From Sneathiella sp. HT1-7 (GTDB lineage: Bacteria > Pseudomonadota > Alphaproteobacteria > Sneathiellales > Sneathiellaceae): a stretch of 64,000 bases of DNA. Positions 34,574 to 38,007 of this stretch are shown piece after piece (position 1 is the first letter of the stretch; each line of letters starts with the position of its first letter). The stretch is from NCBI RefSeq assembly GCF_020731145.1, contig NZ_JAJFZN010000002.1, positions 434,001 through 498,000 of the forward strand, read 5' to 3'. A model generated the notes under the pieces. The model saw nothing but the letters and a program-made list of their open reading frames with translations, was not told the origin of the DNA and did not search any database. The translations under genes and the position numbers were made by a program.

Positions 34574-34947
34574 ATATGTTCCTATCAGTGGCAATCGGCG
34601 GCGCGTTGGGTGCCTGCGCGCGTTACGGCGTCGCACAAATCATGCTGCGACAGCTAGGGCCGGGCTACCCTTATGGAACCTTACTTGTGAATATCGTCGG
34701 CTCTTTCCTGATGGGGGTGTTGATCGAACTGATTGCGCTGCGCTGGTCTCCCTCTCCGGAAATGCGCGTTTTGCTGGTGACAGGCTTTCTGGGCGGCTTT
34801 ACGACTTTTTCTGCTTTCTCTCTCGACGTTGCGTTGATGGTGGAGAAGGGGGAGACACTCTCGGCGGTGAGTTATGTTTTAATGTCAGTTTTTCTATCTA
34901 TTGCCGGGCTGTTCGCCGGGCTTCATTTAATGCGGGCGGTATTGTAA
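34570..34947 (+). CDS. crcB: Fluoride channel CrcB (Fluc family)
   Basis: A small dimeric fluoride export channel of the inner membrane. Start ATG 34570 (MNMFLSVAIGGALGACARYG), overlapping the rarA stop as ATGA, gives 125 residues with four hydrophobic helices. Family motifs GGALGACARYG, GTLLVNIVGSFLMG and TGFLGGFTTFSAFSLD are all visible; the last holds the pore phenylalanines and the central sodium-site backbone. No fluoride riboswitch is apparent, which fits its place inside an operon. Confidence 0.95.
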   Translation: MNMFLSVAIGGALGACARYGVAQIMLRQLGPGYPYGTLLVNIVGSFLMGVLIELIALRWSPSPEMRVLLVTGFLGGFTTFSAFSLDVALMVEKGETLSAVSYVLMSVFLSIAGLFAGLHLMRAVL

Positions 34948-35945
34948 TGAGCCGGGTTCAACATCTTATCGTGAGCGAGGACGAAGCGGATCAACGGCTC
35001 GATCGTTGGTTCAAGGCACATTTTCCGGGCCTTACCCACGGGCAACTCGAAAAATTTCTTCGTAAGGGGGATATCCGGGTCGACAAGAAAAGATCAAAGG
35101 CGAATGATCGTCTTGAGGCAGGGCAGACAGTACGGGTACCGCCTCTGGCGGATGATGTCTACAAACCGGTGCAAGCAAGAGGCCCGCGCGTGACGCAAGC
35201 CGAGAAACTCTCCGATAGGGATATCGCCGACATCCGGCAGATGGTCCTGCATATGGATGATGCCGTGATTGTCCTCAACAAGCCGGCCGGTCTTCCGGTT
35301 CAGGGCGGTAGTGGTCAGAACCGCCATATCGACGGTCTGCTGGAAGGGTTGCGGTTTGACTATCCGGAAAAGCCACGTCTCGTACATCGTCTGGACAAAG
35401 ATACATCTGGCGTCCTCGTGCTGGGCCGGACAAGGCAGGCGGCAAAGCATCTGGCGGAAGCATTCAAACGCCGCACAACGCGCAAGATTTACTGGGCCCT
35501 GCTTGTCGGTGTGCCAAAACCGCATGAAGGAACAATCAGCTATAACCTTGCCAAAATTGTTACCTCTAACGGAGAGAAGGTCGTTGTCGATCGGGAAGGG
35601 CAGACGGCAGTCACGGATTATTCCGTTGTTGAGGTCGCTGCACAAAAGGCCTGTTGGGTCGCCTTCAAGCCACTCACCGGACGCACGCATCAGCTTCGTG
35701 TTCATGCGGTGGGGCTGGGCACGCCGATCGTTGGCGACGGCAAATATGGCGGCACGGAAGCTTTCCTGGACGGGATTGTCAGCAAGAAAATGCATCTGCA
35801 TGCGCGGGAGATAACGATCTCGCATCCTGATGGGGGGGATGTCACGGTATCTGCGCCGCTGGATCGACATATGGCCGAGAGCTGGAAGCTGTTCGGTTTT
35901 CAGGAAAATGACTATGAAGATCCGTTCCTGGATATCGAGTTTTAG
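34947..35945 (+). CDS. 23S rRNA pseudouridine synthase, RluC/RluD family
   Basis: Converts specific uridines of 23S rRNA to pseudouridine. The 332-residue enzyme has an N-terminal S4 RNA-binding domain (LDRWFKAHFPGLTHGQLEKF) and the catalytic motif HRLDKDTSGVLVLGRT with the essential Asp. The RTHQLRVHAVGLG and GDGKYGG motifs follow. RluC is the usual alphaproteobacterial assignment, but RluD is not excluded. It overlaps crcB by one base and ends the four-gene run. Confidence 0.92.
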   Translation: MSRVQHLIVSEDEADQRLDRWFKAHFPGLTHGQLEKFLRKGDIRVDKKRSKANDRLEAGQTVRVPPLADDVYKPVQARGPRVTQAEKLSDRDIADIRQMVLHMDDAVIVLNKPAGLPVQGGSGQNRHIDGLLEGLRFDYPEKPRLVHRLDKDTSGVLVLGRTRQAAKHLAEAFKRRTTRKIYWALLVGVPKPHEGTISYNLAKIVTSNGEKVVVDREGQTAVTDYSVVEVAAQKACWVAFKPLTGRTHQLRVHAVGLGTPIVGDGKYGGTEAFLDGIVSKKMHLHAREITISHPDGGDVTVSAPLDRHMAESWKLFGFQENDYEDPFLDIEF

Positions 35946-35976
35946 GCTCATGGGCACGGATTTTGCCGCTTTTGGC

Positions 35977-36004
35977 TTGACTAATGGCTTGGAATGACTA
36001 GATT
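35977..36004 (+). promoter_or_regulatory. Promoter of the leuA leader transcript
   Basis: TTGACT (35977-35982), 16 bases, TAGATT (35999-36004). Preceded by GGC as in CTTGAC-type promoters. A transcription start 7-8 bases after the -10 box would fall at 36011-36012, on the ATG of the leader peptide. Confidence 0.65.
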
Positions 36005-36011
36005 TTCACGC

Positions 36012-36065
36012 ATGATGAATTCGAACCGACTACTGAGCCTACGACTTATTGGCCCGGCACTCTGA
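36012..36065 (+). CDS. Leucine-rich leader peptide of leuA (probably leaderless)
   Basis: A 17-residue reading frame, MMNSNRLLSLRLIGPAL, ending in TGA. Five of its 17 codons are for leucine (CTA, CTG, CTA, CTT, CTC), four of them within seven codons. It sits between a good promoter and leuA, the first gene of leucine synthesis. The terminal codons and stop overlap the 5' arm of the CCGGCAC/GTGCCGG hairpin, so ribosome position would decide whether that stem forms. This is the classic layout of amino-acid attenuation. There is no room for a ribosome-binding site between the predicted transcription start and ATG, which suggests leaderless translation as reported for the trp leader of Sinorhizobium. 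The gene is not proven. Confidence 0.6.
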   Translation: MMNSNRLLSLRLIGPAL

Positions 36066-36333
36066 ACTTGGTGCCGGAGCGAAAGCTGTCCTATTCTCAA
36101 AATTGTCGGATAAACGAATGTGTGTAATGAAGACCTCTGGGTCGACCATCTCTGAAAATTTAAACGGTTCATGGCGGGAAGAGTGTCTTCACTCCTCCGG
36201 GGGGCTCTCTCGACTTCCAGGCGGTCGTTCGGATACGCGCGGCGTCCGGGGACCGTATGCAGGCTGCATTGAACTGAGTATATGAGAAACAAGGGGCGCA
36301 TGGCGTCCAATCGAGACAAGAGGAATTCTAAAA

Positions 36334-38007
36334 ATGACATTCACACCCGGCGACAAATATAAGGCATTCGAGCCGATTAATATTCCAGATCGACAATGGC
36401 CAACCAAGGTGATTGATAAGGCGCCGATTTGGTGCAGCGTGGATTTGCGCGACGGTAACCAGGCGCTGATTGAACCCATGGGGCATGAGCGTAAACTCCG
36501 CATGTTCCGCCATCTGGTGGAGCTTGGCTTCAAGGAAATCGAGGTCGGCTTCCCCTCTGCTTCCCAGACGGATTTCGATTTTGTCCGCTTCCTGATCGAC
36601 GAAGGGGAAATTCCCGATGATGTGAAAATTCAGGTGCTGACCCAGGCACGTGAAGAGCTGATCCGCCGCACTTTCGAAAGTATCAAAGGTGCCAAGCAGG
36701 CGATTGTGCATCTGTATAACTCAACCTCTACCTTGCAGCGCCGGGTGGTGTTCGATCTCGATAAGGTTGGCATCAAGCAAATCGCAATCGAAGGTGCGAA
36801 ACTGGTTCGACAGCTTGCCGATGAAATGCCGGAAACCTTGGTGCAGATGGAATATTCTCCGGAAAGCTTTACCCAGACGGAACTCGACTATGCCTGCGAA
36901 GTGTGCTCGGTCGTCATGGATATCTGGAAGCCGACGGTCGACAACAAGATTATCATCAACCTGCCTGCGACTGTCGAAGTTGCGAGCGCTAATGTCTATG
37001 CGGACCAGATTGAATGGATGCACCGCAATCTGCCTGATCGGGACAAGGTCCTGTTGAGCCTGCATCCGCATAATGACCGGGGCACCGGTGTTGCTGCCGC
37101 TGAATTTGGCATCATGGCAGGCGCCGACCGGGTGGAAGGCACCCTGTTTGGCAATGGCGAGCGCACCGGCAATGTCGATGTGGTGAATATCGCCATGAAT
37201 ATGTACACGCAGGGCGTTGATCCCGAGCTCGATTTCAGTGACATTAATGAGGTTGTCCGCACCGTCGAATATTGTAACCAACTGCCGGTCCATCCGCGTC
37301 ATCCTTATGGCGGCGATCTGGTTTTTACGGCCTTCTCCGGATCGCATCAGGACGCGATCAAGAAGGGCTTCGGCGCGATGAAAAAATCAAACGATCCACT
37401 TTGGGCGATCCCTTATCTGCCGATTGATCCCGCCGACCTTGGTCGTAACTATGACGCGGTGATCCGGGTCAACAGCCAATCGGGCAAGGGCGGTGTGGCC
37501 TATCTGCTGGAGGAAGACTATGGGATTGAACTTCCGCGTCTGTTACAGGTTGAACTCAGCAAGGTGGTGCAGGGCGTGACCGATGAGACAGGGAAGGAGC
37601 TTTCCTCTGCGACGATCTTTGAAATTTTCGAAAATGAGTATCTCAACGCTAAGGGTGATATTGAATTTGTCGATCATCAGACGACAGTGGATACCCACGC
37701 ATCCGAGCGGCGCAAACTGATCGCGACCATCCGCGAGAAGGGTAAGGAACGCACGGTCGAGGGTATTGGGACCGGTCCGATAGATGCCTATATGTCGGCC
37801 CTTAAGGACTCTTATGGCTTTGACCTCAAGGTCAATGATTATCGCGAGCATACAACCGGGTTTGGTTCTGACGCGGTGGCGGTGGCCTATGTTGAAATGC
37901 GCGATGACAAGGGTGAACCGATCTTCGGTGTTGGCCGTCATGCGAATATTGTAACGGCCTCTCTCAAGGCGATTACAAGCGCGGTAAACCGTTCGCAAAA
38001 TCAGTAA
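36334..38007 (+). CDS. leuA: 2-isopropylmalate synthase
   Basis: Condenses acetyl-CoA with 2-oxoisovalerate, the first committed step of leucine synthesis. The 557-residue protein belongs to the larger LeuA type found in actinobacteria and many alphaproteobacteria. The TIM-barrel starts with IWCSVDLRDGNQALIEPM (metal Asp), has SLHPHNDRGTGVAAAE (metal His pair) and GTLFGNGERTGNVDV. The C-terminal third is the regulatory domain (GIGTGPIDAYMSALKDSYG and beyond) through which leucine gives feedback inhibition. Its long leader with a leucine-rich peptide suggests attenuation, and a terminator follows. Confidence 0.96.
   Translation: MTFTPGDKYKAFEPINIPDRQWPTKVIDKAPIWCSVDLRDGNQALIEPMGHERKLRMFRHLVELGFKEIEVGFPSASQTDFDFVRFLIDEGEIPDDVKIQVLTQAREELIRRTFESIKGAKQAIVHLYNSTSTLQRRVVFDLDKVGIKQIAIEGAKLVRQLADEMPETLVQMEYSPESFTQTELDYACEVCSVVMDIWKPTVDNKIIINLPATVEVASANVYADQIEWMHRNLPDRDKVLLSLHPHNDRGTGVAAAEFGIMAGADRVEGTLFGNGERTGNVDVVNIAMNMYTQGVDPELDFSDINEVVRTVEYCNQLPVHPRHPYGGDLVFTAFSGSHQDAIKKGFGAMKKSNDPLWAIPYLPIDPADLGRNYDAVIRVNSQSGKGGVAYLLEEDYGIELPRLLQVELSKVVQGVTDETGKELSSATIFEIFENEYLNAKGDIEFVDHQTTVDTHASERRKLIATIREKGKERTVEGIGTGPIDAYMSALKDSYGFDLKVNDYREHTTGFGSDAVAVAYVEMRDDKGEPIFGVGRHANIVTASLKAITSAVNRSQNQ

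Follow-up and report, generated by a model that had tools for sequence, protein, structure and literature searches.

In the marine bacterium Sneathiella sp. HT1-7, a gene for a pseudouridine synthase is separated from leuA by 388 nt, a distance of about 380–470 nt in relatives. The locus raises the question of whether this gap carries a leader that adjusts leuA expression to the supply of leucine and, if so, how such a leader is built. We addressed it in a 64,000-nucleotide stretch of DNA (hereafter, the window) from a genome of 3.83 Mb, for which the nearest named relative found was Sneathiella glossodoripedis (LeuA 85% identical). A first-pass annotation had read the region as having the layout of ribosome-mediated attenuation. 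Its leucine-coded leader and the hairpin over the end of the peptide were recovered here and are conserved, but a second leader frame and a long RNA arm (P1) had been missed. The leader region is flanked by the following features:

34947–35945: pseudouridine synthase gene, 5' neighbor of the leader region
36320–36324, plus strand: Shine-Dalgarno sequence of leuA (GAGGA), conserved in the genus
36334–38007, plus strand: leuA, 2-isopropylmalate synthase, 557 aa, with genus orthologs 83–97% identical

Promoter and first leader frame

Three features make up the upstream part of the leader:

35976–36004, plus strand: promoter CTTGACT-N16-TAGATT (TTGACT at 35977–35982, TAGATT at 35999–36004), aligned in 23/23 genus genomes
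36012–36065, plus strand: ORF1, leader peptide MMNSNRLLSLRLIGPAL, with five Leu codons (CTA CTG CTA CTT CTC)
36042–36047, plus strand: CGA-CTT (Arg-Leu) signature, followed by A, near the end of ORF1

A scan of positions 35900–36400 returned a single sigma-70-like site, the promoter at 35977–36004, and its TAGATT -10 element ends 7 nt before ATG 36012. Transcription is accordingly predicted to start at 36011–36012, at or beside the first codon of ORF1. Readable sequence was available from 23 genomes of the Sneathiella clade, that of the window among them. In every one, this ATG lacks a ribosome-binding site and lies approximately 7 nt after the promoter, and the promoter, the ATG at the same distance, and a frame of 17–19 aa of constant design are all kept. 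Hence, the promoter placed just ahead of ATG 36012 by the earlier annotation was borne out as the sole site in the region, as was its 17-residue, five-leucine peptide before leuA, with frame and Leu codons conserved in 23/23 congeners. The proposal that this peptide is translated without a ribosome-binding site was likewise upheld by the conserved promoter-ATG spacing, the 5' end itself being a prediction. Loss of the short frame in relatives, one of the checks suggested at that time, was not seen among the 23 congeners, and ORF1 is additionally conserved in one further genome (G025). Upstream of ORF1, the spacer of the promoter contains an in-frame ATG at 35994 (MTRFSRMMNSN...) that could lead gene-calling programs astray.

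Codon usage in ORF1 departs strongly from that of the 36 genes in the window. Leu codons account for 31.5% of ORF1 codons (8.25% in window genes), CTA makes up 47 of 120 Leu codons (39%, versus 2.7%), and 43 of 46 Arg codons are CGA (versus 6.3%). The pattern formed by ORF1 and the hairpin over its end occurs once in the genome, at leuA. Taken at the level of sequence comparison, ORF1 is well supported as a real, leaderless, leucine-rich leader peptide, and so is its anatomy as a sensor. The leader peptides had no match in NCBIfam or Pfam, and Rfam covariance models gave no match between 35700 and 36500 up to an E value of 5; a tRNA gene (1220–1292) was the sole Rfam match in the window.

A second leader frame and the pairing that joins it to the first

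Downstream of ORF1, we identified a second conserved frame and three paired elements:

36118–36285, plus strand: ORF2, 55 aa (...SSGGLSRLPGGR...), second conserved leader ORF
36196–36216, plus strand: TCCGGGGGGCTCTCTCGACTT block, the most conserved part of the leader, holding the CGA-CTT of ORF2 (36211–36216)
36054–36061 with 36070–36077, plus strand: hairpin 1, with the ORF1 stop codon (36063–36065) in its loop
36221–36226 with 36251–36256, plus strand: hairpin 2, over the end of ORF2
36026–36109, plus strand: long arm P1 between ORF1 codons 5–12 and the segment that leads up to the ORF2 start, enclosing hairpin 1

ORF2 is preceded by a weak possible ribosome-binding site (GGA, 36108–36110). 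From its ATG to CGA-CTT, the frame contains no stop codon in 23/23 genomes, whereas the two alternative frames stay open in 4 and 2 genomes, and shuffled sequences were open in a mean of 4.3 and a maximum of 11 genomes (2,000 trials). The distance from ATG to CGA takes several values among congeners, every one of them a multiple of 3. The amino acids of the N-terminal part are free to change (pN/pS of about 0.75–1), so the act of translation, and not the peptide, probably matters in this part of ORF2. Leucine makes up only 10% of ORF2 in the genus. The alignment columns of the TCCGGGGGGCTCTCTCGACTT block, on the other hand, are invariant or nearly invariant in the 23 genomes. Conservation of this block extends to synonymous sites, a constraint at the nucleotide level that coding alone does not explain. 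The stop codon of ORF2 sits in the loop of hairpin 2 in 15/23 congeners and in most other families; in the subclade to which the window belongs (G020, G022, G018, G001, G002, G016, and G014), it falls outside the loop and the frame runs on.

To assess pairing, each 5' arm was matched with its own 3' region and with those of other genomes (partner-swap test), giving covariation P values that serve as guides because the sequences are related by descent. The arms of hairpin 1 covary across families (P = 4e-10; P = 1e-8 with differently set search intervals), and pair counts within the genus also back this covariation. The first-pass annotation had the core of this hairpin exactly (36054–36060 with 36071–36077); it extends by one further T-G pair (36061/36070) and holds the stop codon in its loop. 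Hairpin 2 gave P values of 1e-10 and, with the differently set intervals, 3e-6. A hairpin over the end of the ORF follows each CGA-CTT, and its loop usually holds the stop codon.

Three further stems had been proposed before leuA, but these are not independent and resolve into parts of hairpin 2 and of one long arm. P1 proceeds in steps, CCGAC:GTCGG (36026–36030 with 36105–36109), TGAG:CTCA (36034–36037 with 36096–36099), and GAC:GTC (36043–36045 with 36088–36090), so that its 5' strand is the Arg-Leu-Leu region of ORF1 and its 3' strand ends about 8 nt before the ORF2 ATG. ORF1 matched the 30 nt before its own ORF2 better than those of other genomes (P = 8e-9, 29 loci; P = 3e-6 in the swap test that covered the hairpins), while control pairings of ORF2 with the pre-ORF2 segment and of ORF1 with the leuA start gave P values of 0.7–0.8. 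Compensated versions of the arm include GGCTTTCGGGC:GCCCGAAGGCC, AATCTGGC:GCCAGATT, and CCTGTCGCC:GGCGACAGG, as well as AATTCTGAGC:GCTCGGAATT and AATCGACTA:TAGTCGATT. Within the genus, 20 double-change cells were counted versus 6.3 in shuffles (0/500 reached 20), and sliding the partners lowered pairing from 88% to 31–50%. The arm also formed in the fold of every congener (14.2 arm pairs versus 7.8 with a shuffled 3' strand), and the folding test gave P = 2e-7 in other families.

Approximately 30 pairings were tried in all, of which the two hairpins and the ORF1 arm hold up under any correction and are established by comparison of sequences. Pairing between ORF2 and the leuA start survives only barely and is only suggestive: a helix search gave P = 0.001 and folding gave 0.03 and 0.10, with a value of about 0.03 once the roughly 30 tests are taken into account. 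We relied on arm covariation because a loose count of stop codons enclosed by a stem was barely above that in shuffles (104/117 versus 88).

Several other candidates were tried and rejected. A pseudoknot between the loop of hairpin 2 and a downstream segment is attractive by eye (GYRGC:GCTGC in Sneathiella, GAGGAGC:GCTCCTC in rhizobia), and it gave a swap P value of 0.25, or of 0.04 with a mean family rank of 0.53. A programmed frameshift at CUU-A that would fuse ORF1 to ORF2 was dropped because the frame relation varies between genomes, with ORF1-to-ORF2 start distances of 104, 106, 108, and 128 nt. We also discarded the idea that CGACTTA pairs with a fully complementary, conserved site elsewhere in the leader, as the complement TAAGTCG was found once in 68 genomes; in the genus, pairing is limited to the GAC of this motif, whose partner is a conserved GTCC (98.6% of cells).

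Distribution across Alphaproteobacteria

The regions upstream of leuA were surveyed in 68 other alphaproteobacterial genomes from 44 families, with ORF and leuA starts picked by rule and not by annotation. CGACTT occurred 81 times in these regions, versus 7 for its reverse complement AAGTCG, and the longer CGACTTA occurred 67 times versus the single TAAGTCG. Most copies of CGACTT (72/81) were in frame as CGA-CTT within a short ORF that had a start and a stop close by, compared with 1 and 10 in the remaining frames. Such an ORF was present in 28/44 families, and two were present in 18. A leucine-rich leader ORF (≥3 Leu in 8 residues) was found at 68 of 83 loci, a set that includes the named loci, whereas the reverse strand gave 8 and shuffled sequences 11.6; requiring 4 Leu left 45 loci, with 2 on the reverse strand.

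Pairs of leader ORFs in other families are exemplified by MTIRTDTGLLGLRLIGPAS with ...VPPLGLMRLSGGRR and by MNKTARLSLLLLSGPIL with ...ISLLLLRLTSGR. Leu codons are carried by both leader ORFs across families, and a second signal is not evident. Spacing from TTGA(C) to ATG was 35–36 nt in 26 loci of other families, and the leaderless layout therefore reaches far beyond the genus. Some families have a single leader, such as ...SLGLLLALRLIGGYRP, which is apparently leaderless too, and the rhizobial ...LSLLSLDLTRGCRVQ. In rhizobial leuA leaders with a single Leu leader (L033, L038, L044, and L056), a hairpin loop with GAGG(G)AGC is complementary to a downstream, anti-Shine-Dalgarno-like GCTCCTC/GCTCTCTC, and this may represent a separate switch design.

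A possible relay to leuA, competing readings, and precedents

We consider it probable that ribosomes on the leader frames make leuA responsive to leucine through a relay in two steps, from ORF1 to ORF2 and from ORF2 to leuA. The transcript would begin at or next to ATG 36012, and ORF1 would be translated leaderless. When Leu-tRNA is short, a ribosome would pause on the Leu codons of ORF1, including the rare CUA, and in doing so would melt P1 and hold the start region of ORF2 open. Where ribosomes finish ORF1 and leave, or never load, P1 would close beside the ORF2 start. ORF2 repeats the design (Leu codons, CGA-CUU, and a hairpin over its end) immediately ahead of leuA, and its translation could either expose the leuA start or keep Rho off an otherwise untranslated leader, and so set the level of leuA expression. 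The leader lacks a U-run terminator, so the last step most likely opens leuA for translation or guards against Rho. Masking of ORF1 by a ribosome in a partition-function model opened neither the ORF2 start nor the leuA start significantly, so that the switch (stalling, ORF2 activation, and read-out on leuA) remains an inference. That the relay is truly serial, with leaderless ORF1 licensing ORF2 and leucine-dependent stalling on ORF2 then licensing leuA, is a tentative idea that we regard as possible without favoring it.

Alternatively, ORF1 alone may sense leucine, and ORF2 may be a spacer frame whose translation, or lack of it, decides termination by Rho. The earlier annotation had noted no clear stem plus T-run terminator, and our terminator scan of the window indeed found no intrinsic (U-run) terminator; predictions in relatives showed no clear excess (47/107 versus 37 expected). 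Both results suit control by Rho, as does the unconstrained N-terminal sequence of ORF2. However, ORF2 too has an in-frame CGA-CTT and, in other families, runs of Leu (LLLALRLIGG, ISLLLLRLTSGR), it has its own covarying hairpin, and the excess of C over G before leuA is only slight in other families and nil in the genus. We therefore regard such single-ORF, Rho-controlled attenuation as unlikely.

Classical transcription attenuation, in which the hairpins would be parts of an antiterminator/terminator switch with a non-canonical terminator, appears still more doubtful. A stop codon in a hairpin loop does resemble the 1:2 hairpin of trpL-type leaders, and hairpin 2 is followed by a U-rich stretch in a few relatives (G040, G257). 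Nonetheless, the window offers no terminator for such a switch, and 2:3-type pairings between the arms of hairpins 1 and 2 failed the swap control (P = 0.3–0.9).

A free trans-acting product had also been suggested, with the leader released as a small RNA or the peptide acting in trans, as for rnTrpL/peTrpL of Sinorhizobium. The leaderless ORF recalls trpL of Sinorhizobium meliloti (PMC10117765), but no support for such a product emerged: there is no terminator to make the 3' end and so release a small RNA, the pattern is present once in the genome, at leuA, and conservation follows codons and pairing in cis, all of which makes this reading very improbable. Chance or an annotation artifact, meaning short frames within an ordinary 5' UTR, would fit the unremarkable folding energy of the whole leader (z = -1.16) but can practically be dismissed given that frame, codons, and pairing are conserved in 23 congeners and 28 families. 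A minus-strand open frame of 119 aa (35981–36340), antisense to the whole leader, is itself probably a product of chance.

The preferred relay has precedents for its components, namely single-ORF amino acid attenuators, a leaderless trpL, and the tandem attenuators of mgtCBR. The textbook amino acid attenuator has one ORF and, in most cases, a terminator; leuL and other proteobacterial examples comprise a short ORF with codons for the product amino acid, a stop codon in a hairpin, and rare Leu codons. The leuA leader resembles leuL-type attenuators in its Leu-rich short ORF before a biosynthetic gene, its stop codon in a hairpin, and its rare Leu codons. It differs in that two ORFs in tandem are coded for one amino acid, of which the first is leaderless, in its lack of a U-run terminator, and in the arm between ORF1 and the segment ahead of the ORF2 start. 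In the leaders of the inducible resistance genes ermC and cat, sequence of the leader ORF is paired to the region where the following ORF starts, and a stalled ribosome could free that start. ORF1 likewise pairs with the segment leading into ORF2; unlike in those translation attenuators, the signal would be Leu-tRNA supply instead of a drug, and the downstream frame is a second leader.

In S. meliloti, trpL (rnTrpL) has one leaderless ORF on an mRNA that begins at the AUG and yields a released attenuator small RNA (PMC10117765). The leuA leader shares with it an alphaproteobacterial leader peptide on an mRNA beginning (here, by prediction) at the AUG, but has two ORFs instead of one and no terminator, in contrast to the released small RNA of rnTrpL. 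In the Salmonella mgtCBR leader, mgtM and mgtP answer different signals (ATP and proline) additively (PMC3641672). As in that leader, two short ORFs (here open, conserved frames) each have their own structures; unlike mgtM and mgtP, both ORFs of the leuA leader are coded for leucine, and ORF1 is paired to the region where ORF2 starts. Our searches of openly available papers turned up no account of leucine leaders arranged in tandem at leuA, although a single alphaproteobacterial leuA leader may already have been described, for example by Vitreschak et al. (2004).

The job of a terminator-bearing, single-ORF attenuator seems to be done in many alphaproteobacterial families by two serial Leu-coded ORFs, the first leaderless, with no terminator. 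If this is correct, the leader would be a natural setting in which to test how ribosomes that start on a leaderless ORF can gate the next one, and why cells would sense one amino acid twice. A serial relay, if real, would amount to a two-stage, sharpened leucine switch, marked by CGA-CUU-A and present across many families of Alphaproteobacteria. Because the signature is near-invariant, the element can readily be found in sequence searches. As to why exactly CGA-CUU-A persists in both ORFs across families, a slow codon pair is one idea.
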